From Fennellomyces sp. T-0311 (lineage: Eukaryota; Mucoromycota; Mucoromycetes; Mucorales; Lichtheimiaceae), in assembly GCA_025266875.1 (NCBI GenBank), contig JALLLT010000044.1, positions 62,001-126,000 on the forward strand: 64,000 nt of DNA, written 5' to 3'. Below are positions 8,572-36,828 of the stretch, one piece after another (position 1 is the stretch's first letter; each line of letters begins with the position of its first letter). The notes beneath the pieces were generated by a model that saw only the letters and a program-made list of their open reading frames with translations, searched no databases and was not told the DNA's origin. A program made the position numbers and the translations under genes.

Positions 8572-9789
8572 ATGTCTGGTTCTTTCGATTTTACACGCAG
8601 TTACGATATGTACTTGAGCCCACCCCAGCCTATGGATAGCCCAAGTGTCAATTTCTCGTCGCAAGACAATTCATCTTTGGAGGCAACCCTTCCTTTCAAT
8701 GGAAGTGCTGCTTTGACGCGCCCTTGCGACGCACCAAGCGCGCACGACACCTTGATGGTGCAGAGTCAGTCGCTCAAGCCACCATCATTGGTAATGACGA
8801 CGACGACGTGCACACAATGATGGTTAAGATGCAGCACGCGTTTAACTAGCGTTGTGGGCAACTGGAGGTGGATCTGCAGCTTCAGGCGCGGAAGCTCAAG
8901 AATGCAGAGAGCCTAGTTGGCGCCTTGCAGGAGAAGGTCACCAAGCTGGAGCAGGACAATGTAGACCTGCAAACCCAGGTCAACGAACTCAACCGCAAGG
9001 CCGAGCAAACGCGCTCCAAGAAAGTGTCCAATGGACGCGATCCTGTGCTCTCGGTAACATATTTACTGAATGCGTATATCTTTAGTTTAACTGTTGTTTC
9101 GTTTAGGGTGAGATTAGGAGCTACTTCACGGCCCTAAGACCTCATGTCCGCAGCCTTGACGCTCCCGACCCAGTCATTGCAGATTGCACCGTGTTGCATG
9201 CTGCTGTGCAGTATATGCGCACGGATGTAATGAAAGGCCTTGGAGTCGATTGGCCTGCGCCGTTCGTTGAGCAGAAGATACGAACATGGTTCAAGAACAG
9301 CGGCGCACGGTCCAAGCTCACCGGGGATGAACGAGCAGCGACCAACAAGGCTGCTCAGCTTGTTACTGCTCGCCGCGAGGTGAGACTTTGCAAAAACGTT
9401 TTTAGCTAATATAACTTAACCATATCTATTAGAAATTGAATTGGCGCAAGAAAGTAGTGGACGACGAACGCTACAAGGCAATTCTGGACAACGAATTCGA
9501 GGAAGGGTATGAAAAGCTCGTTCAGCATGAGTTTCTCATGTCCGATGAGGAAGACGTGCGTGATGAGAGCGGCATCATGAGAGCAAAGCGTCCGTTGCGC
9601 CCTCTTTGGAGAGCACCTGTGGTGCGTAGTGTGTTCTGGCTGGAGTTACGAGATTTTGTGTTCTGACTATATTTATATGCAGGTCGATGAGTTGTACGCT
9701 AGGCTCAAAGTGCTACGGGAGCTACAAACCAAAAAGCCCCTACACCATCTTCCTCGCCTAGCGTCCAAAGTGGACAGGGGAGAGTTGAC
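8572..9789 (+). pseudogene. CACTG-element accessory gene, 5' exons; 3' end displaced to 32765-32669
   Basis: Five exons are inferred: 8572-8790, 8850-9053, 9107-9379, 9433-9621 and 9683-9789, with GT-AG introns of 53-61 nt that keep frame. The last exon is cut by hAT copy 1 at codon 'ac|t'. Its continuation is the minus strand 32765-32669, which stays open to a TAA and gives 362 residues in total. Visible parts are a Ser/Pro-rich N-terminus, a coiled coil in exon 2 (leucine heptads from 'LQLQARKLKNAE'), a basic segment with 'IRTWFKNSGARSKL', and an acidic C-terminal third. No family is recognised. By position it is the partner of Tnp2 (a TnpA-like, subterminal-repeat-binding protein), which is inference. 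It is disrupted now, but was intact when the hAT inserted. Confidence 0.7.
9782..9789. repeat. 8-bp target-site duplication half 'gagttgac'
   Basis: This flanks the 5' end of hAT copy 1. Its partner is not at the 3' end of the same copy. It is found inverted (gtcaactc) at 32766-32773, beside hAT copy 2. Confidence 0.95.
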
Positions 9790-10235
9790 TAGGGTTCTGC
9801 ATAAAATCCGGATTGCTCGATCCGTTCCGTTTCGAATTGAAACGAAACGGATTCGGATTAGTACTTTCACGGATCGAAACGGATTCGGATTGAGCTTTTG
9901 ACGATCCGGATTGAAAACGGATCTGAAGGTGGCAATCCGGATCGATCCGTTTGATCCGTTTTATTTTACGTGGCTAATTTGTCATTGACTTGGTAACTAC
10001 AGCATTGTTAAAAGTGTTGAAGAATATATAAGGCGAATATAACATAAACGTATTCCGTTACTTTGAGTAGAGAGTAATATAAAAGAGAAGGGTTTATTAA
10101 AAAAAAAAAAGACGTGCGCCATCGCATAATCTGCTGTGATGCTGTAGCGAAATTAACTAGGGATGGAAGATTGAATTATAATGGGCGGTAATAAGGATCG
10201 TAAACTACAGTGAAAAAAGTAGAGGGCTTTCTGGC

Positions 10236-10475
10236 TTGCGAGCGGCGTTGTTAATTAATATCCATTCGTGTGTTCGGCGAGAGTTGTATCCATCCAAGCT
10301 CTCTGTCGATGATACAGAAGATAATGAGTGTGTAGCCTTATGTGCTCCTTGTGCAGCGATATTACGATTGTTAGCCGTTTCATTCCAGAGTCAGTGGTGT
10401 CGTTATCATGCCGATGGTAATCAAGCTAAAGTATTTTTGGAAGGAGATAGAAGTGCTTTCGGGGATATGATGTAG
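10236..10475 (+). other. Short open frame in the hAT 5' region, conserved in both copies
   Basis: An 80-codon frame starting at TTG is open in both hAT copies (here and 36373-36134) and differs by one residue (C versus R, a CpG transition). It contains 'CVALCAPCAAILRLL'. No ATG or family is apparent. It may be a remnant of captured sequence or a chance frame in a recent duplicate. Confidence 0.25.
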
Positions 10476-10996
10476 TATATACATGGCTGGAACAATATGC
10501 TAAAGGCAGGTTCGCGATCTATTACGATCTGTAAGTTGCTCGTTCATCATACGCGAATGCTGAGCTCTATCATGCAAACCGTTTTATCGTTGATAACATT
10601 GACCATTCGGAAGACTCCGATCGCGGTAGGCTGCTCAATTTAGTAAAAGGGTTGTATGTTTTAGGAAATACTCAACCCGATCTTCATGATAACCTTTGTG
10701 CGACTTCTTCCGAAGGATGATAGCTATCTTATGGCACACCGGAAGAACACTATCATCAGGTTATGTCTAGCTGATCCGTAATATCGGCAATGGCTCATAA
10801 AAACTAAGCTGAACAAAGCTATATAAAGTCTCAAGAGCAATTTGTTTGAAAGTAGAATACACTTCTTTTTATTACTGTTCCTCACTACGGTATGAGACTT
10901 TGCATTTACATCCAACAACTGCATCCTCTTTCGTGCACTCAATCACATACCTTCTTTACTGACATAATTCCTCCCAACAGGCATCCAACTTTTACG

Positions 10997-13353
10997 ATGA
11001 ATCCACCAGCTTTCTCTATCCTCGGTAAGCGCACTTCAACTACGCGTGATGATAACGTACTCGCCCAAGAAGTAAGTTGTCCTGTGCTGCCAATAAGTAC
11101 ATCCTGAATTACCTGCTCTAACATATTCTCATCACTTCCTTTAGGACTCTTCGATGAACGAGCGAGAGGGCAGCTCTATGTCCATCGACTGCCAGCTTTC
11201 CACCATGTCGACTGATTTCGAAAACGAAGACAATGACACCAGCAATGAGGCTGATTCTGTTGCGCCTACTTCGAGCCAAGACCAGGCCACCAGAAAAGGG
11301 GTAAAAGCATGCAAAAGCTGGGTGTACCAGTGGTTCGAGGCGAAGCAAGACGCTACGACAGCCATCACGTACTTCCACTGCCAATACCCGCTGGGCAAGG
11401 GACTCTGCGGTGTACGCTTCAAGGATCCGAAGGGAACAACTACTGGATTGACCAAACACTTGTCCAAACATGGCGTTAACAAGGACACGGCCCGCAATGC
11501 ACCACCACAGGGAAATATGCTCCATGGGTACCTGTCAAACGCCACGGCGAGCTTCCAGCCTTTCGATCCCGAGCTCTTCCGCAGACTGCTTTGCCTGTTC
11601 ATTGTGTCTGCGGCATTGCCATTCGCCATTGTCAAGAACGTGTACTTCCAAAGGTTGCTGAATCTCGTGCAATCCGCTCCGAGTATCACCCACATAAAGC
11701 TCCCCAGTGACACCACCATCTCCCGTGATTTGCTCGACGTGTACCAGCTTTACAGAAGCCGTATGGATGGTATCCTGAAAAGTCAGCCGTACCTTTCGTA
11801 CACTGTCGATGCTTGGACGAGCGAATGGAGAGTCCCGTTCCTTGGTATCACAGCCCATTGGATCGATGAAGAATGGAAGCAGCAATCTGTTGCCATCGGC
11901 CTTCAGCTTCTGAATGGACCACACACTGGTGCGAACATGGCAGGCGCTTTCATGAACGTCTTGAACGAGTGGGACCTGTTGTCGACGCCCTTTTTCCTGA
12001 CGGCAGACAATGCATCCAACATGGATACGATGGCTGTTGAATTGCAGTTTCTGGTCGGATCCGACATCTTTGATGCCAAGGAAAATCGTATCCCATGCAT
12101 CACACATATCATCAACTTGGCTGCACAGGCAATTCTGCACGAGGGACTGGGAGCAGAGGCGTACGATGATGAAGAGCAAGCGTTGCAGACTACAGAGGAG
12201 CCTATTACTATCAGCGCAGGTAAGAGAAAAACCGATCAGAGAAGTCCACCTCCATATTAATTATAATATGACTTACCTTAGGCGAGACGTTGCGTAAGCT
12301 GCGTAAAGGAATCGTAGCCATCAGGGCATCCCCACAAAGACTGGAGCAATACCGGAACTCATTCAAGGTGGTAGGCCATCAACCGCAAAGCATGGACAAT
12401 GAGGATGCCGATATCACCGAAGTCGAGACTAAAGACCGCCGTGAGCTGATCCTCGATGTCCGTACTTGTTGGAACTCGACCTATAGCATGATCCAGAGGG
12501 CGCTTACAGTCAAGCGCTCGTATGGCAGTACATGCCGAAATATCGCAGGGCTTGAGAAGTACGATCTGACCGACTATGAATGGCAATGTCTGGAGAAGAT
12601 GGCCGAACTGCTCCATGAATTTGCGAGAATGACCCCATTGCTGTCTGGTTCGTCCTATGCAACCATGAACTTGGTTATCCTTGCCTATAACCGGTTGCTG
12701 GGGAAACTCGAAGCATACCAAAGATAATGGAAGAAGGTGAGTCGATATACGTGCCAAGGACTGTCATCCCATGCCATATACTTACATCATACTTTTAGAC
12801 CTGGCCTGAATTGGTGCAAGCAGCTAAGTGCGGCTGGGAAAAGTTGCAGGGCTACTATTGCAAGGCTGACGGTCATGCGTACGCCGTTGCTACTGCCATG
12901 GACCCACGCCTCAAGTACGAATGGTGGGAGGACGAGAACTGGGGTGAATACCGGGCAGACGCAATAGAAATGGTGGAGCATACATGGCAATCGTACAAGC
13001 CGTCCAAGAGCCAAGAACGAAGCACGGTCAACCCAGACGCTTTGATCAAGAAGAAGAGGTCGAACGTTGACCAGCTGGAGAAATACGCTGCTGCTGACAC
13101 CGTCACTGACGAGAGTGATGGGGAGAACAACTCGATCGTTTTGGAGTATTGGCAACGGGAGGTGAACAATTGGCAGGAGCTAAGGCTGATGGCACGCAGG
13201 TACTTGGCGATTCCTGCATCGTCAACAGGATCCGAACGCCTTTTCTCTCGCGCAAAGCACTACATCCCAAGTGAGCGAAACCGACTAAGTAGCAAGAAAC
13301 TCGAAGCAAGTGTCCTCCTCGATTCGTGGAGCAAGTATTTTGGAGAAGAATAA
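10997..13353 (+). pseudogene. hAT copy 1 transposase, single nonsense codon
   Basis: Four exons: 10997-11071, 11145-12219, 12282-12736 and 12799-13353, with GT-AG introns of 62-73 nt; 719 residues if the stop is ignored. The protein has an N-terminal BED-like zinc finger ('FHCQYPLGKGLCGVRF' with 'LTKHLSKHG'), the hAT RNase H-like core, and a C-terminal hATC dimerisation domain ('YLAIPASSTGSERLFS'). In exon 3 the codon in 'QR-E-WKK' is TAA (12725-12727), where copy 2 has GAA. That is the only break I see in this copy. hAT transposases cut and paste with 8-bp target duplications, consistent with the flanks. Confidence 0.9.
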
Positions 13354-13836
13354 CAGCAAGATGGGGATTGTGCATGGTTGTAAAAAGCTTTTTTTATGTG
13401 CTCATTACAACGGTCACTTTTCCTTTTTACTTTTAACTCCCCTTCTTCCCTACAAACACTTTTCAATGCTTCTGCCATTCTGCTCTCCCGCCACCCTTAT
13501 CTGTTTTTATTTTCTTCCCCATCGTTACACTTAGTGTTATTTCGTTTTCTCCTTTCTTTTTCTTCTTCCTACTCTTTTCTTCCTTTTTTCTCGCTGCTTT
13601 CGACTGTTGTACTATATAACATCTGCTAATTCAATAAAAAACATCAGCGTATACACTTACTTTTAATTTGTCCTTCTACGAAGCGTTGATCTCTCTCAAA
13701 GCTTGTTCTTACTATTCGGATTTCGGATCGGATCCGGATTTTTATGAAACGGATCCGGATTCCATTTTATAATCCGGATCCTAATCCAGATTCCAAATGA
13801 GCGGATCCGTTTCGGATCCGTGAATGACGATCCCTA

Positions 13837-13844
13837 ATCTTTCT
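13837..13844. repeat. 8-bp target-site duplication half 'atctttct'
   Basis: This flanks the 3' end of hAT copy 1. Its partner is the inverted agaaagat at 36821-36828, beside hAT copy 2. It lies 14 bp upstream of the Crypton start codon at 13859. Confidence 0.95.
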
Positions 13845-16080
13845 TCTACTTCTCGAAAATGTCTTACCATCCTGCTACTTCTTCGTCAACCAATACTCCA
13901 GCCAGTTCTTCGGCTGGTGCTTCGAATAGTGATCTTTTTCCAGCACATGCTGCTGTACTTGCGGCCAACCTTGCTGCAGAGAATGAAGCTTCTCAGCGTA
14001 GCATTAATCTAAAGGAAAAAATCCAGGCGGAAAACATGAAAAAAATATATAGAATGCCTCGAAAGGCGTTTCTTGTGAGTCTATTATTAAAGTATACACC
14101 ATGCTTTATGCAGGAATAACTAAAACAGAGTTCACTTTTAAGGAATGGTGTGCCAAAGTGTACCGATATGAGACGAGCCCGGGTGTGTTTGAGGTTGATG
14201 AGAAAGTCTCAGAGGACAAACTTATACGTTTCTTGGATGAAGTTGTGGTACCGGTGGGCAAGAAGAGGCCCCATGAAGAAGGAGAGCCTCTTGGGTACGA
14301 AAGCTACCAGAACTACCTCAAGTCCATCATGGATTTGTATAAAGAGCAGTGCCTTGCAGAAGAGAACCACCACCCTAATCCCCGTGGTGAAAAACTCAAG
14401 AACTGGAGGAAAGAAAAGCTGGTGAACGATCGTGAAACGAAGCGCGCCAGGTTCGACGATCGAGGCGCCGGAACGCTGAGCGATGGCTACAACTTCGACG
14501 AGATGCTTGCGGTCTCTTGCTACTTCTTTGATCGTGGAACAGGAGCCGAATTGCGGAACCGTGCTACCTTTTTGATTCATCATATGATGCTTCTTCGTGG
14601 TGATAGTTCGCGCTATGCAGAACTTGCTGATCTTCTCTGCGTTCAATTCCCAGATGACGATGGATACACGCCTTGCCCAGTCCTTGTATACCATACGGAA
14701 TTTGGGAAGACAGCTACTCCTGGTGTGCAGGAATATTACGGTACGATTCGCCATAAGAATGTCGAAACTTGTGCTTTTGGCGCCTTGGCTTTCTACTTTT
14801 TCTACCACTTCCATTGTTCCGATGAAGACTTCCTGAACTTCACTCGGAACCAGGAGTGGTACGGTATCAAGATGTTAGTTGGACGAGATAAAATGGAGAA
14901 AATGGCATATCAAACCCAGCATACCGCTATCAAGCGCGCTTTCGAAGCATGCAATGTTATTTCGTTGCATACGACGCATTCTGGACGTGGATCAGGCGCA
15001 AGGGCTGCTGAAATGAACGGTGCAACGGAAGATCAACTGCGTCGCCATGGTGGCTGGAATATGCAGAGCATGAAACGTCATTATCTTTCGAAGCTACCCA
15101 AAGCATCGATCAGAGCAGTAAATGGCTTTCCTCCTGACCATGGACATTTCTAGTTGCGTCGTGCGGTTAAGGAACCAGAGGAGTCCTTGAAGCGGAAGGT
15201 CTTTCCTGATGTAGACGATTGGCTAAGACGTGTTGAGAGTGGTGATGATGCAGCACGCTCGATCTCTGCCCAAGGTTTCCTTAACTTGCTGAAAACCATG
15301 CGCACGATATTTCTTCAGGACGCAGTAATGATGCGCCGCTTGTATCCATCACACCCAATCTTTCGCGATCCTCTTTTTTCTGACCAAGAGTATCGCGACT
15401 TTGAAACGTCGCTCCTAAACGCAAGTGATACGATGCAGCAACCAGCCGATATAAGCATCAATAATGTACTTCCGCATGTTGGTCAACGTCTCGATGCGAT
15501 TGACGCAAGGATTGAAATGCATCATCGCTTGACCATCGAAACTCTTCGCTGTGAAAATCAGGAATTGAGAGAGCAGATGTCGGCAATGATGACTACAGTC
15601 AATCAATTCGCTTCTGGCCACTTTCGGTTCCACCCTGGTCCTGGTGTTAAACCACAAGGAAGTGTGTCGGGCGATAGCACGCAGCAGCAGCATCCGGCGA
15701 CCACATCTGCCAATGTCATTGATGGGCCTCCAAACTACGAGATAGATATGACTATCAAAAAGGTCATTGATGTCTGGAACGAGTACCATCATGGAATTGG
15801 GGATCAACCGGCAACCTCCCAACTGGAAGAAGAATGGGGTACGGTTTGGAGGCGTAAGGCACATGTGACCAAACGCTTCATCAGACGATTGAAAATTATA
15901 AAGGCCCTCGAAAATATCACCGAACAAAGGGCTGATATCCATGGCAACGTGGCAGCAGCTGAACTACTGCAGCGCGAAATGTCAAGAAGAAACTGGTCGC
16001 TTAACCAGCTCATAAACGACCTGTATAAAAGCGAGCCCTCTTCGCTGACAGAGCTTAGAGTGGCCAAAACATTCCAATAA
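13845..16080 (+). mobile_element. Crypton (tyrosine-recombinase transposon), ends not defined
   Basis: The element is recognised from its gene only. Cryptons lack TIRs and make very short direct repeats, so neither end can be set by eye. Its promoter side was split off: in the pre-inversion arrangement the bases upstream of 13837 are the reverse complement of 36829 onward. The 3' limit must lie after the stop at 16080. Confidence 0.75.
13859..16080 (+). pseudogene. Crypton tyrosine recombinase with GCR1_C-like tail, one in-frame TAG
   Basis: The frame opens at ATG 13859 (Ser/Ala-rich N-terminus). An intron (about 14075-14113, GTGAGT donor and GCAG acceptor) leads to the catalytic part, though the phase at this junction does not fit perfectly. 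The recombinase core shows 'MMLLRGDSSRYAELADL' (first catalytic Arg region), 'HSGRGSGARAAE', 'RRHGGW' and 'HYLSKLP' (C-terminal R/H/Y cluster). Codon 15151-15153 is TAG; after it the same frame stays open to 16080 and holds a GCR1_C-like DNA-binding domain ('IKKVIDVWNEYHHG' to 'RRLKIIKALE'). Intact Cryptons encode both parts as one protein, so a point nonsense mutation is the simple reading; readthrough is possible but unsupported. Confidence 0.85.
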
Positions 16081-18558
16081 ATCAAATCTTTGATTTGTTT
16101 ATCAAGGGATTATCCTTGAGGATGTTTGCGCTTGGTTTACCTATAGTACTGTGTTTGGGTTTATACATAGACAATTGAAGCTGTTAGAAAAGGTACCTGG
16201 ATTGACGGTATGTGCAATAAGTATTGATGGTGAGTATTAAGTGAGAATGGGTACGAAGCTCGAAGAATTCGATGTGGAGAAATGAGTGTACTCAGTGCTG
16301 CTATGTTCTGCCTGTAGTTTAGACGTGCGCATAAAGTAATTTTTTACACTAATGCAGATGGTATTTTGGTGGCAGCACTCGCAAAAGCATATGAATTGTA
16401 TGCCAATATCAAAATCCACTTCATATTCATAATAAACTGATATAAAGAAAAGAAAACCAGTGTGCTGCCATTCTAGACTAATGCACCTGTGTTTTAGCAT
16501 AAAGAACAGTGTTTCAGTGGTTGAATATGCTTATTCTGTACTGTACTTTAAAGCTGACGGTCTCATTGGGTGAAAAGCGCTCATTACAGGTTTAACATCT
16601 TGAAATGAGCGACATTGGCAAGTTGTCATGAGCATTGGTAAACAAGATCTTAAGAGTTTGTCCAAATCTATGTATTCCAGGTAGATTCGTGACCCGCACT
16701 TGATATTACATATGTAATTGAAGGTCCGTGCTGCTTGAAGACATGAATTACCTATGTATTTCGCTCGTGACCCCGATATGACCCAGCTAAAATTTGGCTG
16801 AGAAATTGTGACCTTCATGACCAGCGGGTAATATACATATTAATATCAGTACGTATTACACTTAATGCTATCAACTTCAACATACGTTCACCATCACTAT
16901 ATGAGACAGGGCCATCTTTTGAATGACCATTAGCAAGACGGCGCCCTTTGGTGTTCCAACACTCTCCAGTTTGCTCAGTTAGCTGATCCAAAGTTTGCTT
17001 GTAGGTTGCTTCAAGGTAGGTTTTTATAAGGCGCGGTTCATTCAGATTAGAAGTTGATGTTGACATGGTGATTTGAAATTGCAACTGATTTGACGATTTC
17101 GACGATTGTGAAGATCTTTAAAAATTTTAAAGAAGAGTTTACTGTACGCGCGGGTTGCTTGCATTATAATCTAGATTTGGTGTTGCAACCATTTTTGCTG
17201 TGCCAGTCTTAAGTTCCACATCCAATATATAGTAATAGATGTGGGCTACTGTGTTATCAATACAATATTTACTAGAGGCTAACAATATTTCATCCCTGTA
17301 TAGCAACGAATGCACTGAACACATGTAATAGATATGGATGGTGTAAACTGTATATACTCATGGCTATTTATTTCTTAAAGAACATACCACTTTTCGCGTT
17401 TAATCCTCGATATGTCGCTTCCCTAATATCAAACCATCCTATAGCTTCTAGGATTCATGCTGCTTCATAGTGTAAATCATTCTTTTGAATAAGCTGTGGC
17501 AGTAATTTGCTGTACTTTGCTGTATAAAGCTGAATCACGTTACCTTTGTTCTGTGGGTAAAGGTGTATACTCTCTAGTTGCGATCGTTCACGGGATCTAA
17601 AAGAAGCTGCTCAATGTGCTATGATGTTTTCTGATGTCGTCTTTACCAGAGGTAAGTATATTACAGTGTTTGCTTTTGCTAGTTGTAAGACTTTGGCTAC
17701 TTTGTTAAAGAAAGTGTAAGTACTTTAAATGCAAAAGCATTAAAAACTTTACAGAAATCGTTATTTTTCACCTTTCCTGCCGCTCTCCGTGAATTACACA
17801 TCTATGCTTTCCTATAAACGCTTTCAGATGTGATGATTCTGAGATTACATTACTAAATCAAAAGAATCATAATTAACTTTTTTTTTCAAATGCTCTAATG
17901 TTGCTATGATGAATCTTACCTTTTTCCTCGCGTTTCTTTCAGTGGCATTTATCTTTGTGCATTACCCTATTGCGTTCTGCATTCCCGCTTGTCTATCAAA
18001 ACTCTTCAGCTTGTATTACAAAGGAAAAAAAAAGACTTAAGCCTGGGGCTTCTCTTTGCTGAAGTTGCAGCAAAAATTGCCTACGTCAGTCACTCAGCTG
18101 GCCTTGAATAAAATTGGAGGCTCAAAAGTTAAGTGAGGGTCCCATAAGTAAGTGCGGCGACAGCAAGCTGGCTATGATTAGCCGCGAGTGCTTGAGATAC
18201 CCTGCGAAGGTGGCAGCCACATTGAGCGTGATTATGAGGTTCTAAAGGGGAATACATGGTCTTCCACATGATTTTTCTGGGCAATGCTTACTTCGATGAG
18301 TCCAACCAAATCATTTTTTCATGTTTGCATTCAAGGCATTTGAGTGATAAGTAGATCTCACAGTATTGATTTCAGCATTATGCTTCAGGTTCTCAGTAGC
18401 AGTGTTCTTAAGGAAGCTTTTGCTCATAGCATAGGCAGTTAAAGGATTCTTAGAAAGACTTTTAGCATAGAGACCCAGGATACAGTATAAAAAATAAAGG
18501 TGTCTGTATTCCAAATAAGGAAGGAGATTTATAATGAATTTTGGGAGTTGTCTATTAT
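16081..18558. other. AT-rich stretch without a recognised element
   Basis: About 2.5 kb between the Crypton and Harbinger-B. It holds short frames only, no repeat I could pair, and one weak small gene candidate on the minus strand. The Crypton 3' end must lie somewhere in its first part. Confidence 0.5.
16815..17066 (-). CDS. Hypothetical short protein, weak
   Basis: From ATG 17066 a frame of about 80 codons reads 'MSTSTSNLNEPRLIKTYLEA' and continues hydrophilic. A strong donor (GTATGT) after 'SYSDGE' and an AG near 16812 would replace the last 25 codons by a short tail ending in TAG. No domain is recognised, and the frame is not shared with the neighbouring elements. It could be a degraded gene fragment. 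Confidence 0.25.
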   Translation of the reverse strand: MSTSTSNLNEPRLIKTYLEATYKQTLDQLTEQTGECWNTKGRRLANGHSKDGPVSYSDGERMLKLIALSVIRTDINMYITRWS

Positions 18559-18712
18559 GGGTCCTCTCAAGCCTACAATTAACGCTGCAAAATGATGCCC
18601 AAATATGGTTATGATATCAGAATTACTAATTGCGGTAATAAAAAATGGTGGCTTAAAAAAAGAGGTTGGCACCTTTTATCTTTTCTTCATCATTTATCGA
18701 AATTAGTCTGCA

Positions 18713-19936
18713 ATGTCTGGAATCTCCAGTATAAATGTATTCAGTCTAGCCACAGGCATGTCTTGCGGAAGTCGTGGTGGACGTGGAAGTCATGGTGGAC
18801 GCGGTGGTCGCGGTGGTCGCCAGACAGCGTCCGTTACTCCTGGCCCGTCTGTTGCAAGCCGCGACAGTACCCCGGTTGTTGATGGTGCTTACGACGACTT
18901 CTCAGCTTCGGATGCCAACGGGAACATCCATTGGAATCCAGTCGCGATCTCTGCCCTCTTAAGCGCCATGGCAAGCAGATTCATGCAGCTTAAGAACGGC
19001 ACCCCTGCGCAGCAAGCTGGCATTTGGCGCGATCTTGTTGCCACCATGAAGACGGAGCTCGAGCTGGAGCCACAGACGAACGACATAGTGACCTTTCTTT
19101 CCCTTGTTGACACCAACAAGGTGAAAAACAAGTGGAACGCAATGACGCGCCACTACAACAACATCCATGCGTTGCGTATGCGATCCACTGGTGTCAATGG
19201 CCCCCCTCCCTCTCTTGACTGGGAGTTTTATGATGATATTCATAAAATTCTCTTGCCGGACCCCTCGATCAATCCTGAGTTCGTAATTCAGTTGATGGAT
19301 TATGGCGCTACTGGCGCTAGCTTGGTCACTGAGCGCGAAGATGTCAACAAGGCATCTGATGCATCAGCACCCGCTTCGCCATCTGCACCTGCACCTGCAT
19401 CGCTACCATCACCATCTCCAGCACCTGTTTCAACACAGGAAACTGTGTCAAGACGCACCACTGGGCAGGTTGGAATTGGGCGCGGATGACGCATGGTTTT
19501 GGATATCGCCGAAGTTCGTAATGCTTTGTGTGAGAACAACCTCCAGTTCAAACGCATTGCAGAAAACGTATCAAGGAACCTTGTGTCCGACTTGCGCACT
19601 GAGCATGATGAACAGCACTGCAAGAGAAAACGGGACTTGCTGGAGTTCGAGGATCGCCAGCAAATGCGTCGCCAGCTGGACCGCCAGCAGAGGCACTCCC
19701 ACCACGCGGCAAATGCTGCAAGGCTCGATCGCCTCATTGCAATTGGCGAAGAGATAGCTGCAATTGCCCGTCGACGAGCTGAGAACCGTCGCTCATACAG
19801 AGCAAACTCTGAGTACAGCTCGTACGATGAAGAGATCATCTCTGTTGGCGAGGAGGGCGTTGTTGACGAGGAAAGCATTGTTGATAATGAAGATGCTGCC
19901 GGTGCCAATGTCGCTTCTGATGGTACCCAAGAATAA
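18713..19936 (+). pseudogene. Harbinger-B Myb/SANT-like accessory protein, one in-frame TGA
   Basis: Harbinger elements need a second, Myb/SANT-type protein that binds the ends and takes the transposase to the nucleus. Here a Gly/Arg-rich N-terminus ('RGGRGSHGGRGGRGG') precedes a trihelix-like region (about residues 60-170, with 'NKVKNKWNAMTRHYNNI' and 'LDWEFYDDIHKIL'), then a Pro/Ala/Ser linker. TGA at 19487-19489 interrupts the frame ('IGRG-stop-RMVLDI'). The same frame continues to 19936 with a coiled coil rich in Arg/Gln and an acidic tail. The continuing open frame argues for a recent nonsense mutation rather than two genes. Confidence 0.72.
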
Positions 19937-20206
19937 ATTTTTGTTTTTGTTTTAAAAGTGCAAGTGGTAGGTATAACATATAATTATAGAGCAAAAAAGA
20001 TGATACTTCAAATAAAAGCTGATGACGCGAGATGAATGATACCTAATAATATGAATAAGGTATGTAAACTATCTTACACATAGTAGTTTATCATACGGTA
20101 TATAATTTAGTCCAGGTTATCCAATATAAAGTACTATAGATACGATACTCCTCTTATATTTATTATAAAGAGAATTTTCGTTACATACCATTTATTATAG
20201 ACTCAC

Positions 20207-23150: not shown

Positions 23151-23156
23151 TTATTT

Positions 23157-27200: not shown

Positions 27201-27694
27201 TTCGGCCATTTGTAGTGCCACCTGACACTGATCAAGAAGAAGCACCCGCTATTACAGGGCGTGTCCCGGAGGTTCGTCGACTACGTAAGGCACGTCTAAT
27301 TGCAGAAAACCGACTTCGAGACAATGCCGCCAAGGATAAAGCCCGCTGGGATGCTACTTTGAAGCCACAGAAGTTTGTTGTTGGAGATCATGTCTTGTTG
27401 CGACATGAAAACAAGCTGAGCCTCGAATTCAACTGGAAAGGCCCTTACAAGGTTATTGCCACAAAACCCGACACGGACATTTACAAGCTTCAAGATCTCC
27501 AAGGCCAAGTTTATTCCTCTTGGGTGCATACTGACCGTTTACGCCCCATCTACATCGGGTCTGGTACTCTCAAGGATCCTTGGTATGACCCCACCGTTAC
27601 ACGTGCTGCCGAACGACGTCACTTACAAGCTGCTGGTCTACTTGCTATGTTGTTCGAGGTCGACCAACAGTTTGGAGGGGAGGTATTGTCGTAG
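24185..27694 (+). CDS. Gypsy element 1 Pol (PR-RT-RNase H-INT)
   Basis: Polyprotein expressed by -1 frameshift from gag; the frame itself is open from 24089. Protease 'VLIDSGATGSYV'; reverse transcriptase from 'RPPYKMSPLELDEL', with 'FTSLDLRSGYHQ' and active site 'YLDD'; RNase H 'IECDSSDYAVGG'. Integrase has a zinc motif (H...H in 'HNAFGHAG', C..C in 'LCPQCQ'), DDE residues in 'WHLDFVGELP', 'CTDHGANF' and 'KVERTNGIL', and a GPY/F-like module ('FNWKGPYKVIA'). The frame is uninterrupted over about 1170 codons and ends 7 bp into the right LTR region (stop overlaps TGTCG). With 99.7% identical LTRs this is a recent copy. Confidence 0.95.
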   Translation, partial: GKRFSATGLKGVPPRRSQPSLNMVQHAPTTVPEGDLVDLSDDCEPEAKALQDTLEQDSSYFDSLLSIKTTDLPLYSMLCDGRPIDVLIDSGATGSYVNPRLADSLLCCTVPRRQVETAGGHVMSIDRKATLTLDAQGYHHQANAYVLDTKFDLILGRDWLKQIQPVPNWELDTWKISKGAHSYVLRPRHMRQGSELSYLISHRQVQRLERSKRIDDVFVCFIKAEDVKPTPSPDSKFQELVSEFSDVFQDTLPGLPPDRGVQHVVDTGDADPVSRPPYKMSPLELDELRRQLKELLDLGLIRPSSSPWGAPVLFVRKKDGSLRMCVDYRATNRLTRRNSTALPRIDECLERLSKATRFTSLDLRSGYHQVRLRPEDEDKTAFNTRYGQYCWRVLPFGLRNSPPVFQAMMNEALGDCIDTCCLLYLDDLLVFSKDAESYYQDCRRVLERLRAAKLVANIKKCEFNKASLEFCGFEVSARGILPSKKKVQAIQDWPEPTNVQEVRQFVGLASHFRRFIRGFSAMAAPLTDLTRGTGVKKRAITWTPACQDAFEQIKSAMCNAPVLQPPDPALPYVIECDSSDYAVGGVLLQEGPDGQLHPLAFESKKLSETEKRYPAQERELLAILTMLRTWRCFIEGRPYVVRTDHHPLKYFRTQKKPTPRLTRWIAEIELYDPDIQYKPGKDNHVPDLLSRRDGAACVTTEPSLEPDYLYAVKSVQESDWPKFYAVPEEQWPSMYKDLLLKHQDKFVVHDSMVFRKVKVGDAIQEIRYVMFARRADLVEQFHNAFGHAGKTTVYDLMRKRWWWPDMRSDIQEWLALCPQCQLAANADRTIHHAPMKPLEVPPVFSRWHLDFVGELPTTVNHNRWLLVAVDYATNWTIARAIPDATGEAIANFLYEEIVLPFGCPEEICTDHGANFMSKVLANYLGRIKVNHIFTSAFHPRTNSKVERTNGILKQMLRKYTQGQIHRWDQFVAPAVFACRVRKHRTTGFSPYFLVYGVEPRLPGDHLRPFVVPPDTDQEEAPAITGRVPEVRRLRKARLIAENRLRDNAAKDKARWDATLKPQKFVVGDHVLLRHENKLSLEFNWKGPYKVIATKPDTDIYKLQDLQGQVYSSWVHTDRLRPIYIGSGTLKDPWYDPTVTRAAERRHLQAAGLLAMLFEVDQQFGGEVLS

Positions 27695-27995
27695 CCAGAA
27701 ATGGCAGGCATTCCTTTTTTGGTCTGTACCACCGTGAACACGTAGTTGCTTCTTGTTAAGACACGATCTCTTCGAGACGTAGTCTCTGGTCAATACAACA
27801 CGTAGCTCTTTTCCTGCTGAACACGTATATCTCTATCACATATTTAGTATAACCAACTAGTTAGAAAACATATATATATCCCCCATCGTTGTAGACAATA
27901 AAGGCATCTATCAAGTCATCTTTATTCTTTTGTTTTCCTTCGCCTAATTCGCTGATCCATTGGCTTCGGTATTATCCGCCAAAAAGATTACGACA
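27687..27995 (+). repeat. 3' LTR of Gypsy element 1
   Basis: 309 bp, identical to the 5' LTR except G at 27691. It is preceded by a purine tract that primes plus-strand synthesis, and ends 46 bp from the tRNA-Gln gene. Confidence 0.95.
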
Positions 27996-28041
27996 AAGTC
28001 CATCAGAATGGCTACAATTTAAAAGATAAAGTATGCTGCTT

Positions 28042-28113
28042 AGGTCTCGCCGAGATTCGAACTCGGATAATGAGATTCAGAGTCTCATATGCTAACCATT
28101 ACATCACGAAACC
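28042..28113 (-). tRNA. tRNA-Gln (anticodon CUG)
   Basis: The minus strand folds as a 72-nt tRNA. The 7-bp acceptor stem GGTTTCG/CGAGACC has one G-U pair; a D arm contains TAATGGTTAGC; the anticodon stem TGAGA/TCTCA has loop CTCTGAA, giving CTG; the T arm is CCGAG-TTCGAAT-CTCGG. The A and B box promoter sequences (TGTAATGGTTAGC-like and GTTCGAATC) are present, no intron is seen, and CCA is not encoded. Retrotransposon 1 ends 46 bp beyond its 3' end, and Harbinger-A1 had inserted 43 bp upstream of its 5' end. Confidence 0.93.
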
Positions 28114-28156
28114 GATACATTGTTAGTAACTTGCAGGGTGAGTGTTGTGGCATTGT

Positions 28157-28170
28157 AGAGAGGTTGGGGT
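28157..28170. repeat. Detached tip of the Harbinger-A1 TIR
   Basis: AGAGAGGTTGGGGT is identical to the first 14 bp of the Harbinger-A2 TIR (38912 onward). It is followed directly by the CACTG terminus. Its last three bases (GGT) are the inverted partner of ACC at 6901-6903, the CACTG target duplication. Confidence 0.88.
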
Positions 28171-28324
28171 CACTGCACTTAAAATGATTTTTAGCTTTTG
28201 AGCGGACTGCTCAAATGTGGACTTTGAGCCAATTTGAGCCAGCTCAAAATTGCTGGGTTTTTTGAGCTAGCTCAAATGCTAAAAGTCCACATTTGAGCAT
28301 TTGAGCTAGCTAAAAAAAATGTTT

Positions 28325-28555
28325 TTTTTTTCCTAAGTTAATTTTAGACCAATTTTTTTTTTCTTAGTCAATTTCAGACCAACTTTTTTTTTCCTAGTCA
28401 ATTTCAGACCAACTTTTTTTTCCTAGTCAATTTCAGACCAGCTTTCTTTTTTCTAGTCAATTTCAGACCAACTTTTTTTTTGCTAGTCTCCTAGTCAATT
28501 CCAGACCAACTTTTCCTTGGTCAATTTTTTTCGCTAGTCAATTTCAGACTAAAGG
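28325..28555. repeat. Minisatellite of about 30 bp, about eight copies
   Basis: Units read TTTTTTTTCCTAGTCAATTT with CAGACCAAC, repeated with slight length changes in the T run. It lies just inside the subterminal repeats of the CACTG element and upstream of Tnp2. Confidence 0.85.
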
Positions 28556-28633
28556 GATAATTTAATCACAAAAAAAACTCGAAGTCCTATCACTGCTACT
28601 TTTTGTACCTTATCCTTTTTTTTTTACCAAAAA

Positions 28634-31600
28634 TGTCATTTCATTATATGCACCAGAAGAAACTCATACCTTGCTATTGTGATAATTGCTTTAAAGCAAG
28701 CAAGGGGACATATTTACCCCAGAAGCCTCGAACACGTCTTCGCCATTACGAATACATCGGCACCAATCGTTATGACGAAATGGTTGCCAGACGTAATAGC
28801 AACATGGATGTTGATTTCCAAGAAGGTACTAAAAAAAACGGTACTTTGTAAAGTTAATCAACATAACGAATTAGACGTTGAATACGATTACGGCTGTGGT
28901 AGTGAAGGCGCTGTTAAATCACTGCTGCGAACAATGAACTTCCAGTGCAGCCTGTTGTAGTGAAAGAGAGTTTTTCGCGTCTTCCAGATGCGTATTGGAA
29001 TGACGATGTCAATTTCGACAGCGAAAACGAGGGCGAAAACGTCGAAGATGGTAGCAATGAGGGCAGCAATGAGAATGGCGAGGACGAGATCCCTTTTGCT
29101 ACAACCGAGAATGGTCAGTGTCATTACTGCCAAAAATTATACTCTTTTAACCATGTTTTTTATTGCCTGTACACCCAGAGCCAACCACTGGTTCTGAGAG
29201 GCTGTACTTGTTCCTTGGCATGTTCCTAGTTCTCTTCCAGCGGCAGTTCCTGTCTGAGGCTGCTGGAGAATTGCTAATGGCGTTTGTCAATGTTCTTCTT
29301 TCCGAGGTCAATGCTCCGTTCAAGTTGCCAAAGAAAGTGTCCACGCTTCGCGGCCATATGGGGGTTGCTTTTTATGAAGACGGTTTGACTTCTTATGTTA
29401 CTTGTCAAAAGTGTCATAAGATTTATAAGCTCAATGATTTGGTTCGTCAGGAACAACAGTTCTGCGACCATATCGAGTTTCCAAACCACCCTTGGGCAAG
29501 CATGGTTAGGAAGACATGCGGGGGGCCACTAGTGAAAAGGAGCTCAACAGGGCCAGTGGCCTTGAAGGAGTTTCCTTATCACTCTGTCATTTTGGGGCTG
29601 AGGATGTTGTTCAAGTGGCCAAACGTTTTTGGAACGGATCAATGCATGGAGACATCGCACCCGTTTTGGAAATAGGCTGTTTGATGTTTATGATGGCAGA
29701 ATGTGGCGAGCGACTTTGGATTCTGAGGGGAAACCATTTGTAGATGATGATCATTCTCTACTGTTGACGCTTAATTGCGATTGGTTTAATCCAAACGCTA
29801 AAGGCGCAGCATATTCATGTGGTGCAATTTATTTGTCGCTCAATAACTTGCCGCGATCTGAACGTTACAAACCAGAGAATATTCTCTTGGTAGGTGTACT
29901 GCCAGGTCCACATGAGCCAAGCAACCACCAGATTAACAATTACCTTCGTCCGCTTGTCGATGAGCTACAGCAGCTTTATACTGGTGTACTCCTTGACAGA
30001 GCGATTGTAATGGGCCAAGAATCCGTGCGGCACTTTTGATGGTAGCTTGTGACATCCCTGCTGCACGCAAGATTTCAGGCTTTACCGGTATCCGATCTTT
30101 CCGCGCCTTTACAAATGCGACCGACGGTTCGAAGCGATCCCAGGCACCAAGATCGGAATTGGGCAGTTTTCGACATCAACACCCAAACGATGGACGAAAA
30201 CAAAGCCTTGGATGCGTCGCACCAGTGGACAACCGCAACAACAGCCAAAGAACGGCAGACAGTTGAGCATGATGCTGGTTGCCGTTGGTTAGAGTTGTGT
30301 CGCCTGATATACTTTCAAAGGGTTCGCGCAACGATTGTTGATCCAATGCACAATCTGTTTCTTGGAACCGCCAGGCGAATGGTGGAACTTTGGCAGAGAG
30401 TGATAGATCCAGAGACCAACCAGCCGTATCTTACGCCAGCCCACTTTGCAAGCATGGAAGAGCAGCTGCACACATTCGACCTTCCTCCCGGCTACGAGAT
30501 ATCAAAGCGTAAGGTTGGTCAGTGCTGTGCACATATGCAGCACTGAATGGCGCGTGTGGACCTTGGCCTTGTCACCACTGCTCCTGAAAACAAGACTCCC
30601 AAGATCCCACCTGGACATTTGGCTTCTTTTCGTGGATGCCTGTCGCCTGCTCGCAAAGCCCTCCTTGACCACCCATGACATTTCTAGAATGCATGAATAC
30701 TTCCGCCAATTCTGCATAAATGTGGATGAAGTGTACGGTCATCACGAAGTCACCCTGAATATGCATATGCATTTGCATCTTGCTGAAACGGTTCTTGACT
30801 ATGGCCCAGCACCAGCTTTCTGGATTTTCTCGTTCGAACGGTACAACGGCCTCATAAAAAGCTTTGATACCAACAACAAGGATCGCTTTGAAGGTACCTT
30901 CATGCGAAGCTTCTTGGAAATGTCCTTCGCGGATAGCTTCATGGCCAGCAAGGGCTTCCAAGTAACAAGAGATCCAAACCTTCTTGGGCTTTTCGAAGCG
31001 CTTGTTCCAAGCATCAAGGCCACCACCATCGACACCACAAACCACCATGCTCACTTTGACTTGCCCCGTTTCCTCGGCTATGCAGAGGAACTGGGCGACG
31101 AAGAGGTCACTGGTCAGGAGCCACTGCCGCCATCTGTAATCCAGACCACCAAGATCCAGTCACAGTTCGTTGCAATGAGTGACGAGCACTATAAGTGTTT
31201 GTTCGCCCATTACAGCGAATTTATATTGGAAGCCAATACAGGGCGACAGGTAATTACACATGTACACATATGGACATTGATTAATATGTTTAAATTACAG
31301 GCGAGATTAAGGATGGAGCACTGGTGGTGAGTAACAGGATCAGAAAGTTCACAACAATCGACATCCTAGGCCAACTGTACCGAAGCACCGACGCTAGAAG
31401 TACCAGGGGATGTTATATTCAAGCCTACTTCGACAAGACCGACAACGACAATCAGCCAATCCTAGATTGTGATGAGATGGAGTTTCGGTATGGTAGGATT
31501 GAATATTTCTTTGTGCACTTGGCCGAGGCTATTTGCGAGGAGACAAACGAACCACGTACGGGGCAACACGTATATGCATTTGTTCGATGGTTCGCGAAGT

Positions 31601-31785
31601 CTCATCCAGCCTTTGCGTCTTTTGCTCCGTTTGGTTTGGCGGTATGCAAGGACGAGTCCCAGCTGTTACCACTGAGTAGGGATTGTATTCTTCCTGTTCA
31701 TAGGATTTTCTCTCCGGTTGCTGTCTGCCCGTGGATTGACAACAATCTCATAGTCATTCCGTTACCACGTAAGACCATCGGCTAA
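28634..31785 (+). pseudogene. Tnp2-type (Transposase_21) CACTA transposase, several frameshifts
   Basis: Catalytic transposase of CACTA/EnSpm elements. An N-terminal Cys-rich segment ('CYCDNCFKASKG') is followed by acidic sequence. After a clear intron at 29114-29178 comes 'EPTTGSERLYLFLG', zinc-binding 'CQKCHKIY', then the core 'RLFDVYDGRMW', 'LNCDWFNP', 'ENILLVGVLPGPHEP', 'ATIVDPMHNLFLG' and the C-terminal 'IEYFFVHLAEAI'. The parts lie in different frames with breaks near 28920, 29626 (a T5 run), 30030, 30110, 30520 and 31250-31300, so at least five indels have accumulated. It is the most decayed gene of the window, older than the hAT insertions, and clearly non-functional. Confidence 0.85.
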
Positions 31786-31917
31786 TCGCCTCCATTCCGT
31801 TCATTACACTTTTACCTTCATTGCTTCCTACATTCCCGACTTCCACCATTCGTTTTCCTTTAATTCCGATTTCTACAACCACGAAAATACGCCTATATGC
31901 CCTATGCCAATTCCTTC

Positions 31918-31958
31918 TTATGCCTTATGCCTTATGCCTTATGCCTTATGCCTTATGC
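31918..31958. repeat. Heptanucleotide tandem repeat TTATGCC
   Basis: Five full copies and one partial copy of TTATGCC lie in the AT/pyrimidine-rich stretch between the two CACTG genes. The rest of 31786-32668 holds no gene that I can support. Confidence 0.9.
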
Positions 31959-32668
31959 TCTCTATTATTTATTTCCATTCTCTTTCCCTGTATCTTATGT
32001 TTATGTACCTTTTTCTACTTATGTCTTCGTTGCCCACACTTCACTCCTTCCACTATTCGATATACTTATACTTCTATGCCTTTATGAATCTACGCCTTGT
32101 GTAGCTATTCAGTAGAATGTCCTTAGATGCGTGCTTTGCACTACTTCGGAAGCATTCGATGCTTATCATTCGATCACACGAGAGAGAACGTCTGCTATAA
32201 CTTGATTCGTCTTCTTTAACTGACTATGACATTATGCGGCTCTGTTTTTTGTATACGAAGCGATAATGATCCATTTAAGTATAAACATAGGTAAGTTGGC
32301 TCGGGAATTGTCTGATATGATCCAGAGGCGGACCATTCAAGCAACGGAAATATGAAAGGCACCGCCTCAGGGCACCGTGGTATTTTAGAAGCGTCCTTAC
32401 TTTTCTAGTAAGCCTGTATCCCAGAAATAAAATTTTTGACACTCTTTCTTTTCAGTCCATGTTTTCTTGAATAGGAGTTATGCGCAAATACCATGATCCC
32501 TACGAGATTGTAAAAACATTGTGCACTCATGAGTTTACAATTACCGTTCTCCTTGACTGTTGCTAACGATTGTTAACCCATGAGCTTTATGCCCAACTTT
32601 TGCGCCCAAAGACAGCTCAATCTTTTTTGTCCCAAGCCCAACCCTACCACCCTACCACGTTGGTGCTT

Positions 32669-32765
32669 TTATTCCTGTACATTTTCATCAAATTCCTCAG
32701 GACGCTGCGTAGCTTCGTGGGGAGAATTGACAGCCCAGTCGGGCAACAGCTTTCGCTGCTCATCA
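32669..32765 (-). pseudogene. Displaced last exon of the CACTG accessory gene
   Basis: Read on the minus strand, 32765 onward completes the codon split at 9788-9789. It adds 'DEQRKLLPDWAVNSPHEATQ' and further residues to TAA at 32671-32669. In the present order this exon is 23 kb from its gene and points the other way. The restored frame is strong evidence for the inversion. Confidence 0.85.
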
Positions 32766-32773
32766 GTCAACTC
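32766..32773. repeat. 8-bp target-site duplication half 'gtcaactc'
   Basis: Reverse complement of 9782-9789. It flanks the low-coordinate end of hAT copy 2. Confidence 0.95.
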
Positions 32774-35700
32774 TAGGGATCGTCATTCACGGATCCGAAA
32801 CGGATCCGCTCATTTGGAATCCGGATTAGGATCCGGATTATAAAATGGAATCCGGATCCGTTTCGTAAAAATCCAGATCCGATCCGAAATCCGAATAGTA
32901 AGAACAAGCTTCGAGAGAGATCAACGCTTCGTAGAAGGACAAATTAAAAGTAAGTGTATACGCTGATGTTTTTTATTGAATTAGCAGATGTTATATAGTA
33001 CAACAGTCGAAAGCAGCGAGAAAAAAGGAAGAAAAGAGTAGGAAGAAGAAAAAGAAAGGAGAAAACGAAATAACACTAAGTGTAACGATGGGGAAGAAAA
33101 TAAAAACAGATAAGGGTGGCGGGAGAGCAGAATGGCAGAAGCATTGAAAAGTGTTTGTAGGGAAGAAGGGGAGTTAAAAGTAAAAAGGAAAAGTGACCGT
33201 TGTAATGAGCACATAAAAAAAGCTTTTTACAACCATGCACAATCCCCATCTTGCTGTTATTCTTCTCCAAAATACTTGCTCCACGGATCGAGGAGGACAC
33301 TTGCTTCGAGTTTCTTGCTACTGAGTCGGTTTCGCTCACTTGGGATGTAGTGCTTTGCGCGAGAGAAAAGGCGTTCGGATCCCGTTGACGATACAGGAAT
33401 CGCCAAGTACCTGCGTGCCATCAGCCTTAGCTCCTGCCAATTGTTCACCTCCCGTTGCCAATACTCCAAAACGATCGAGTTGTTCTCCCCATCACTCTCG
33501 TCAGTGACGGTGTCAGCAGCAGCGTATTTCTCCAGCTGGTCAACGTTCGACCTCTTCTTCTTGATCAAAGCGTCTGGGTTGACCGTGCTTCGTTCTTGGC
33601 TCTTGGACGGCTTGTACGATTGCCATGTATGCTCCACCATTTCTATTGCGTCTGCCCGGTATTCACCCCAGTTCTCGTCCTCCCACCATTCGTACTTGAG
33701 GCGTGGGTCCATGGCAGTAGCAACGGCGTACGCATGACCGTCAGCCTTGCAATAGTAGCCCTGCAACTTTTCCCAGCCGCACTTAGCTGCTTGCACCAAT
33801 TCAGGCCAGGTCTAAAAGTATGATGTAAGTATATGGCATGGGATGACAGTCCTTGGCACGTATATCGACTCACCTTCTTCCATTCTCTTTGGTATGCTTC
33901 GAGTTTCCCCAGCAACCGGTTATAGGCAAGGATAACCAAGTTCATGGTTGCATAGGACGAACCAGACAGCAATGGGGTCATTCTCGCAAATTCATGGAGC
34001 AGTTCGGCCATCTTCTCCAGACATTGCCATTCATAGTCGGTCAGATCGTACTTCTCAAGCCCTGCGATATTTCGGCATGTACTGCCATACGAGCGCTTGA
34101 CTGTAAGCGCCCTCTGGATCATGCTATAGGTCGAGTTCCAACAAGTACGGACATCGAGGATCAGCTCACGGCGGTCTTTAGTCTCGACTTCGGTGATATC
34201 GGCATCCTCATTGTCCATGCTTTGCGGTTGATGGCCTACCACCTTGAATGAGTTCCGGTATTGCTCCAGTCTTTGTGGGGATGCCCTGATGGCTACGATT
34301 CCTTTACGCAGCTTACGCAACGTCTCGCCTAAGGTAAGTCATATTATAATTAATATGGAGGTGGACTTCTCTGATCGGTTTTTCTCTTACCTGCACTGAT
34401 AGTAATAGGCTCCTCTGTAGTCTGCAACGCTTGCTCTTCATCATCGTACGCCTCTGCTCCCAGTCCCTCGTGCAGAATTGCCTGTGCAGCCAAGTTGATG
34501 ATATGTGTGATGCATGGGATACGATTTTCCTTGGCATCAAAGATGTCGGATCCGACCAGAAACTGCAATTCAACAGCCATCGTATCCATGTTGGATGCAT
34601 TGTCTGCCGTCAGGAAAAAGGGCGTCGACAACAGGTCCCACTCGTTCAAGACGTTCATAAAGCGCCTGCCATGTTCGCACCGGTGTGTGGTCCATTCAGA
34701 AGCTGAAGGCCGATGGCAACAGATTGCTGCTTCCATTCTTCATCGATCCAATGGGCTGTGATACCAAGGAACGGGACTCTCCATTCGCTCGTCCAAGCAT
34801 CGACAGTGTACAAAAGGTACGGCTGACTTTTCAGGATACCATCCATACGGCTTCTGTAAAGCTGGTACACGTCGAGCAAATCACGGGAGATGGTGGTGTC
34901 ACTGGGGAGCTTTATGTGGGTGATACTCGGAGCGGATTGCACGAGATTCAGCAACCTTTGGAAGTACACGTTCTTGACAATGGCGAATGGCAATGCCGCA
35001 GACACAATGAACAGGCAAAGCAGTCTGCGGAAGAGCTCGGGATCGAAAGGCTGGAAGCTCGCCGTGGCGTTTGACAGGTACCCATGGAGCGTATTTCCCT
35101 GTGGTGGTGCATTGCGGGCCGTGTCCTTGTTAACGCCATGTTTGGACAAGTGTTTGGTCAATCCAGTAGTTGTTCCCTTCGGATCCTTGAAGCGTACACC
35201 GCAGAGTCCCTTGCCCAGCGGGTATTGGCAGTGGAAGTACGTGATGGCTGTCGTAGCGTCTTGCTTCGCCTCGAACCACTGGTACACCCAGCTTTTGCGA
35301 GCTTTTACCCCTTTTCTGGTGGCCTGGTCTTGGCTCGAAGTAGGCGCAACAGAATCAGCCTCATTGCTGGTGTCATTGTCTTCGTTTTCGAAATCAGTCG
35401 ACATGGTGGAAAGCTGGCGGTCGATGGACATAGAGCTGCCCTCTCGCTCGTTCATCGAAGAGTCCTAAAGGAAGTGATGAGAATATGTTAGAGCAGGTAA
35501 TTCAGGATGTACTTATTGGCAGCACAGGACAACTTACTTCTTGGGCGAGTACGTTATCATCACGCGTAGTTGAAGTGCGCTTACCGAGGATAGAGAAAGC
35601 TGGTGGATTCATCGTAAAAGTTGGATGCCTGTTGGGAGGAATTATGTCAGTAAAGAAGGTATGTGATTGAGTGCACGAAAGAGGATGCAGTTGTTGGATG

Positions 35701-36820
35701 TAAATGCAAAGTCTCATACCGTAGTGAGGAACAGTAATAAAAAGAAGTGTATTCTACTTTCAAACAAATTGCTCTTGAGACTTTATATAGCTTTGTTCAG
35801 CTTAGTTTTTATGAGCCATTGCCGATATTACGGATCAGCTAGACATAACCTGATGATAGTGTTCTTCCGGTGTGCCATAAGATAGCTATCATCCTTCGGA
35901 AGAAGTCGCACAAAGGTTATCATGAAGATCGGGTTGAGTATTTCCTAAAACATACAACCCTTTTACTAAATTGAGCAGCCTACCGCGATCGGAGTCTTCC
36001 GAATGGTCAATGTTATCAATGATAAAACGGTTTGCATGATAGAGCTCAGCATTCGCATATGATGAACGAGCAACTTACGGATCGTAATAGATCGCGAACC
36101 TGCCTTTAGCATATTGTTCCGGCCATGTATATACTACATCATATCCCCGAAAGCACTTCTATCTCCTTCCAAAAATACTTTAGCTTGATTACCATCGGCA
36201 TGATAACGACACCACTGACTCTGGAATGAAACGGCTAACAATCGTAATATCGCTGCACAAGGAGCACATAAGGCTACACACTCATTATCTTCTGTATCAT
36301 CGACAGAGAGCTTGGATGGATACAACTCTCGCCGAACACGCGAATGGATATTAATTAACAACGCCGCTCGCAAGCCAGAAAGCCCTCTACTTTTTTCACT
36401 GTAGTTTACGATCCTTATTACCGCCCATTATAATTCAATCTTCCATCCCTAGTTAATTTCGCTACAGCATCACAGCAGATTATGCGATGGCGCACGTCTT
36501 TTTTTTTTTTTAATAAACCCTTCTCTTTTATATTACTCTCTACTCAAAGTAACGGAATACGTTTATGTTATATTCGCCTTATATATTCTTCAACACTTTT
36601 AACAATGCTGTAATTACCAAGTCAATGACAAATTAGCCACGTAAAATAAAACGGATCAAACGGATCGATCCGGATTGCCACCTTCAGATCCGTTTTCAAT
36701 CCGGATCGTCAAAAGCTCAATCCGAATCCGTTTCGATCCATGAAAGTACTAATCCGAATCCGTTTCGTTTCAATTCGAAACGGAACGGATCGAGCAATCC
36801 GGATTTTATGCAGAACCCTA
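32774..36820 (-). mobile_element. hAT transposon copy 2 (inverted)
   Basis: 4047 bp, the reverse complement of copy 1 with few differences, including the subterminal CCGGAT arrays and the 80-codon frame at 36373-36134. Many sampled differences between copies are CpG/TpG or CpG/CpA pairs. Its flanks (gtcaactc and agaaagat) are not a pair with each other but match the flanks of copy 1. Confidence 0.95.
33257..35612 (-). pseudogene. hAT copy 2 transposase, single-base deletion
   Basis: Same four-exon layout as copy 1 on the minus strand (about 35612-35538, 35464-34391, 34328-33874, 33811-33257). The codon that is a stop in copy 1 is GAA here ('QREWKK'). In exon 2, however, one base is missing near 34660: 'gcgcttt-atgaacg' here, 'gcgctttcatgaacg' in copy 1. 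This shifts the frame after 'TGANMAG'. Each copy thus carries one different disabling change. BED-like finger and hATC domain are as in copy 1. Confidence 0.9.
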
Positions 36821-36828
36821 AGAAAGAT
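36821..36828. repeat. 8-bp target-site duplication half 'agaaagat'
   Basis: Reverse complement of 13837-13844. It flanks the high-coordinate end of hAT copy 2. Confidence 0.95.

Follow-up and report, generated by a model that had tools for sequence, protein, structure and literature searches.

An approximately 19-kb inversion between two oppositely oriented hAT copies in a Mucorales-like fungus

In a transposon-crowded stretch of a Mucorales-like fungus, approximately 19,000 bases are flipped between two near-identical, oppositely oriented hAT copies, hAT1 and hAT2 (Table 1). In this assembly, segment 13837-32773 of the window (the whole 64,000-bp stretch of DNA analysed) is inverted relative to the time of hAT insertion, and the flipped order is the derived state. 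The first-pass annotation had proposed this inversion from the flanks of the two hATs; paralogues that show each insertion point empty, together with two deeper levels of nesting, bear it out. The flip probably arose by an ectopic crossover between the inverted hATs, after two separate insertions.

Table 1. Features of the window and their coordinates
Feature	Positions	Strand	Remarks
Repeat X, first copy	5074..6903	+	interrupted near 3' end by CACTA-like element
CACTA-like element, 5' part, interrupted by hAT1	6904..9789	+	terminus CACTGCACTTAAAATGATTTTTAGC
GAGTTGAC, 8-bp target duplication, left of hAT1	9782..9789	+	partner 32766-32773
hAT1, 4047 bp	9790..13836	+	termini TAGGGTTCTGCAT and, reverse-complemented, TAGGGATCGTCAT
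ATCTTTCT, 8-bp target duplication, right of hAT1	13837..13844	+	partner 36821-36828
Segment inverted relative to arrangement at hAT insertion, minimum extent	13837..32773	.	paralogous empty sites and deeper nesting
Crypton-like element, main part	13837..16837	+	NDC10_II and GCR1_C domains; 3' end approximate
Mutator-like repeat, part inside inverted segment	16833..18155	-	aligned with L070 188-1507
3' tip of repeat X, ending CCAACCTCTCTA	28158..28170	-	now within inverted segment
Remainder of same CACTA-like element, displaced and flipped	28171..32773	-	ACC, a 3-bp duplication, at each outer end
GTCAACTC, reverse complement of GAGTTGAC, left of hAT2	32766..32773	-	exact match
hAT2, 4047 bp	32774..36820	-	near-identical to hAT1
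AGAAAGAT, reverse complement of ATCTTTCT, right of hAT2	36821..36828	-	exact match
5' tip of same Crypton-like element	36821..36994	-	severed by hAT2, outside inverted segment
Mutator-like repeat, continuation outside inverted segment	36994..37871	+	split by Crypton-like element

Crosswise duplications of the hAT pair

The four 8-mers that the first-pass annotation had placed beside the two hATs are all present where it put them. Exact 8-mer comparison also confirms that the flanks of hAT1 and hAT2 pair crosswise, neither copy having a matching pair of its own, and that the two oppositely oriented copies, each 4047 bp, are almost identical as claimed (99.4% identity). They differ by 23 substitutions and two compensating 1-bp indels (25 alignment columns), and identical runs between the arms reach 600 bp. 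Most of the substitutions are transitions (20 of 23) and 17 of the 23 fall at CpG, a bias that would fit methylation of the hAT repeats. Both transposases are defective, through different lesions: a premature stop near element position 2936 in hAT1 and a 1-bp deletion in the frame of hAT2 near element position 2162. The hAT C-terminal dimerisation domain (PF05699) is found in hAT1 at 12811-13353 (E 1.1e-13), while the Pfam search of the hAT1 ORF at 11154-12260 gave no match. The terminal inverted repeats are short and imperfect, with TAGGGTTCTGCAT and TAGGGATCGTCAT agreeing at 10 of 13 positions. The best named matches to the hAT come from Circinella minor, with 48-61% identity over 48-93% of the query, and those from Lichtheimia corymbifera are lower. 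For an RPB2 fragment, identity is highest to Rhizopus arrhizus (92%), although the best-scoring entry carries the label Marasmius sp. (80%); the host is accordingly described as Mucorales-like.

As a control, the assembly to which the window belongs (45.6 Mb, 182 contigs) was searched for further ends of this hAT family. We collected 14 3' ends (at most 1 mismatch) and 16 5' ends (at most 2 mismatches) and compared the adjacent 8-mers all against all. Full 8/8 matches are six within-copy pairs and exactly two cross-copy pairs, both of them between hAT1 and hAT2, and crosswise matching is confined to this one pair among the ends compared. A perfect duplication of their own is carried by six of the eight other two-ended hATs (C80, C12, C142, C5, C108, and C96, the two ends of the last being drawn from separate matches about 6 kb apart), indicating that the 8-bp duplication is the rule for this family. 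The chance of two prespecified 8-mer matches is, by arithmetic, about (1/65536)^2, and this figure and the all-against-all matrix of hAT ends lead us to reject agreement by chance.

The other two two-ended hATs, on C98 and C154, have unmatched 8-bp flanks (CCCCAGAT/GTCCTAAA at C98:25120-29118 and GAGGCAAC/ATATATTT at C154:106844-110911) and no partner among the ends found; they are possible further rearrangements. When the C98 hAT was considered as a second recombinant, its flanks were found to lie in scattered repeats and no clear empty site emerged. The C34 hAT lacks a 3' terminus, and the other leftover ends belong to partial copies.

The original estimate of about 19 kb holds as a minimum, 13837-32773 spanning 18,937 bp. 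Because the breakpoints would lie somewhere inside the hATs, the physical inversion may measure anywhere from 18.9 to 27.0 kb. The window contains several other elements. A Ty3/gypsy-type element at 22827-27991 has two 300-bp direct repeats that are 100% identical and a likely duplication of AAGT or AAAGT, and a tRNA-Gln (28042-28113) lies about 50 bp from its end. At the left edge of the window there is a Helitron helicase ORF (within 27-4003), whose Helitron_like_N and PIF1 domains fall in 27-3515; another ORF lies beside it at 3530-4003.

Empty sites and nested host elements

Two queries were run against the assembly, the 2-kb left flank of hAT1 and, reverse-complemented, the left flank of hAT2 over the same length; each matches a repeat family. 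In all 11 other listed copies that reach the site (C33, C98, C175 twice, C154, C37, C168 twice, C122 at 154504, C66, and C160), the two left flanks, the second reverse-complemented, are contiguous with an 8-bp overlap, and in 11 of 11 this overlap is one single GAGTTGAC. Near the join (within 200 bp) the copies are 94-100% identical, apart from C160 at 87-92%. Viewed from the hAT2 side, the same 11 join up out of 12 other listed places starting at the insertion point; the twelfth, C128, has the 8-mer together with upstream DNA unlike the left flank of hAT1. Of nine full-length matches, six keep a 69-aa frame open across the join and three have stops in it. The interrupted element is called CACTA-like because CACTGCACTTAAAATGATTTTTAGC termini are found at 6904 and, inverted, at 28171; the Pfam search of its ORFs at 30049-30546 and 30446-31330 gave no match.

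The second empty site gives a similar picture. The 2 kb right of hAT1 have matches at eight other places, seven of which begin at the first or second base. In all seven, the preceding DNA corresponds, over its alignable length, to the reverse-complemented beginning of the hAT2 right flank; the Crypton-like flanks are thus uninterrupted, each copy having one 8-mer, which is a single, exact ATCTTTCT in five of the seven and is altered in C49 and C113. Identity over the 166-bp tip is 99-100% in five copies and 92% in C49; the alignable portion in C113 is limited to 55 bp, at 91%. Paralogue matches to the main part of the element stop at 16837 (L067) and 16840 (L068). A Pfam search detected NDC10_II and GCR1_C in ORFs at 14101-16080; we take these to be domains associated with fungal Crypton tyrosine-recombinase elements. 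Elsewhere, two Crypton-like copies stand in direct tandem at C161:59506-64673, 3167 bp apart. This spacing equals, within a few bases, the length of the pieced-together element of the window, and the tandem suggests site-specific tandem integration.

The first-pass annotation had predicted that 9789 and 32765, and likewise 13845 and 36829, should be contiguous in the uninverted arrangement. Both contiguities are seen in paralogues of the same assembly, as distinct from an orthologous chromosome. As for the uninverted locus itself, neither 8-mer recurs at any further hAT end among those collected, and the assembly yielded no allelic contig.

The elements that received the hATs are themselves nested in older repeats, and these are also split. 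On C167, the counterparts of 36994-37095 and of the reverse complement of 18155-16833 are contiguous with a 7-bp overlap, in the only copy of the Mutator-like repeat that reaches the junction among the matches listed. The contiguous C167 copy indicates that the Crypton-like element had sat in the Mutator-like repeat, the halves of which are now apart. The label Mutator-like was assigned by eye, and the Pfam search of this repeat gave no match. The Mutator-like repeat also harbours a 400-bp insertion (37872-38272), itself a repeat with over 30 further copies among the matches listed (89-99% identity).

On the other side, repeat X (45 matches listed, query included) is cut at 6903 and resumes with CCAACCTCTCTA at the reverse complement of 28158-28170, and ACC adjoins both outer ends of the CACTA-like element. 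Repeat X is uninterrupted through its 3' end in six of six other copies inspected (one in the window and five elsewhere), two of which have small changes just before the tip. One flip of 13837-32773 rejoins four junctions, namely the two empty sites and the two deeper nesting levels. On one side, the order of events would be repeat X, insertion of the CACTA-like element into X, and then the hAT; on the other, the Mutator-like repeat, insertion of the Crypton-like element into it, and then the hAT. The inversion would have followed both hAT insertions.

Two copies of repeat X (5074-6903 and 38922-40758, about 96-97% identity) form an outer inverted pair enclosing the whole arrangement and are a potential second substrate for flipping. 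We set aside recombination at this outer pair, which is not required to account for the junctions. The ends examined here were the 3' ends, and the first copy begins later at its 5' end.

Ectopic crossover and alternative routes

In the most probable course of events, two members of one hAT family would have inserted in opposite orientation at sites some 19 kb from each other, the first site lying in the CACTA-like element, where GAGTTGAC was duplicated, and the second in the Crypton-like element, where ATCTTTCT was duplicated. The intervening DNA would have been flipped later, when the two hATs paired and underwent a non-allelic homologous crossover. Such an event would leave two reciprocal chimeric hATs, each with one side of each duplication, and would split the host elements of both insertions across the inverted segment. 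That the breaks fell within the hATs, and that homologous recombination joined them, is our inference. Ectopic recombination is the accepted reading of exchanged duplications in the sections consulted of two Drosophila studies (PMC2775673; PMC3355041). The first-pass annotation went further, calling the inversion "proven" and the arrangement the "exact product of one crossover"; the crossover stands as the most likely route, but other routes yield the same sequence. Swapped duplications alone fall short of proof for a crossover, because sister-chromatid transposition or a misjoin inside the hATs looks identical. The excerpted text of one of these studies likewise leaves hybrid-element insertion possible on exchanged duplications alone and turns to chimerism of the copies for additional evidence (PMC2775673).

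CpG columns were masked, and hAT1 and hAT2 were compared with 12 further members of the family. The two show 6 non-CpG differences and no switch point, the relatives being too alike and the informative sites few. A stretch of 36 bp near position 4014 is missing from hAT1, hAT2, C40, C142, and C5 and is present in C80, C12, and C51. This common absence, one derived non-CpG state and a weak tree grouping, both described below, hint that hAT1 and hAT2 may be sister copies. Sister copies are expected both from local transposition before a crossover and from hybrid-element transposition, so that this relationship does not decide between them.

Hybrid-element transposition from sister chromatids, by which the inversion and the second hAT would be made in one step, is a rather unlikely origin. 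After replication of a single hAT, its 5' end on one chromatid and its 3' end on the other would be excised as a unit and reinserted at a nearby site. For this route, the legend of Figure S1, case A, describes an inversion with a copy at either side (PMC2775673). In the part of the literature consulted, maize provides documented alternative transposition of a hAT element, Ac/Ds, and impala of the fungus Fusarium is cited as a case of non-standard transposition (PMC8225341). This route would accommodate the derived non-CpG state at position 2642, which is common to hAT1 and hAT2 and absent from the 12 other copies, and the tree that groups the two weakly (support 0.741). However, local transposition followed by recombination accounts equally well for the common state, and the two hATs are no closer mutually (the 6 non-CpG differences) than to C80, which lies at a non-CpG distance of 4 from hAT1 and 4 from hAT2. 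We also judge a hybrid-element event to be rarer than recombination between 4-kb near-identical arms. The two-element form of reversed-ends or hybrid transposition predicts unmatched outer duplications and a segment lost or duplicated, and it is rejected because each flank pair matches and neither empty site is disrupted.

A misjoin inside the hATs, with a true order that is uninverted and an assembler that crossed between the hATs at both sites, is unlikely. Contig ends truncate four of the roughly 20 hAT copies (at the starts of C24, C172, and C40 and at the end of C51), indicating that the assembler struggled with this family. Nevertheless, an assembly of 182 contigs, some longer than 1 Mb, with many separate 4-kb hATs at about 98-99% identity that carry private differences, appears to be a long-read product, and such reads span 4 kb. 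The misjoin would also be required reciprocally in both hATs, which can be told apart at their 25 differing alignment columns.

Long inverted arms 19 kb apart are standard substrates for flipping, and both orientations could coexist among nuclei through repeated hAT recombination. This is compatible with the crossover reading but strikes us as quite improbable, as none of the copies among the hAT ends in the assembly is flanked by a pair of GAGTTGAC or a pair of ATCTTTCT.

Relation to known inversions

Transposon-mediated inversion is a known phenomenon, as with Galileo and BuT5 in Drosophila, and the inversion described here is a well-documented new case in a Mucorales-like fungus. For the Galileo inversion 2z3 of Drosophila buzzatii, the portion of the report consulted describes both the uninverted chromosome and chimerism of both copies (PMC2775673), whereas here the uninverted state is read from paralogues and the comparison of the hAT copies gave no switch point. 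Galileo belongs to the P superfamily and makes 7-bp duplications, whereas the element in the window is a hAT with 8 bp (PMC2775673, same portion). The BuT5 inversion 2s of Drosophila mojavensis likewise has exchanged duplications that were read as ectopic recombination; by the passages available, one copy is reduced to a footprint and the inversion is fixed in the fly species, whereas both hATs here are full length (PMC3355041). Maize Ac/Ds inversions resemble the present one in involving a hAT, 8-bp duplications, and an element at the inversion ends. As set out in the excerpt consulted, they use the facing ends of two elements and create a new target duplication, whereas here the flank pairs match and the empty sites are intact (PMC8225341). 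A narrow search of the open-licence literature, at the level of titles and abstracts, returned no fungal hAT inversion with exchanged duplications.

The inversion is a clean illustration, in a Mucorales-like fungus, of how two copies of a cut-and-paste transposon reshape a chromosome. Since the host elements are repeats too, a single assembly suffices, with no outgroup, to establish the order of nesting on both sides and which orientation is derived. The combination of swapped duplications and paralogous empty sites could be applied genome-wide to count such inversions.
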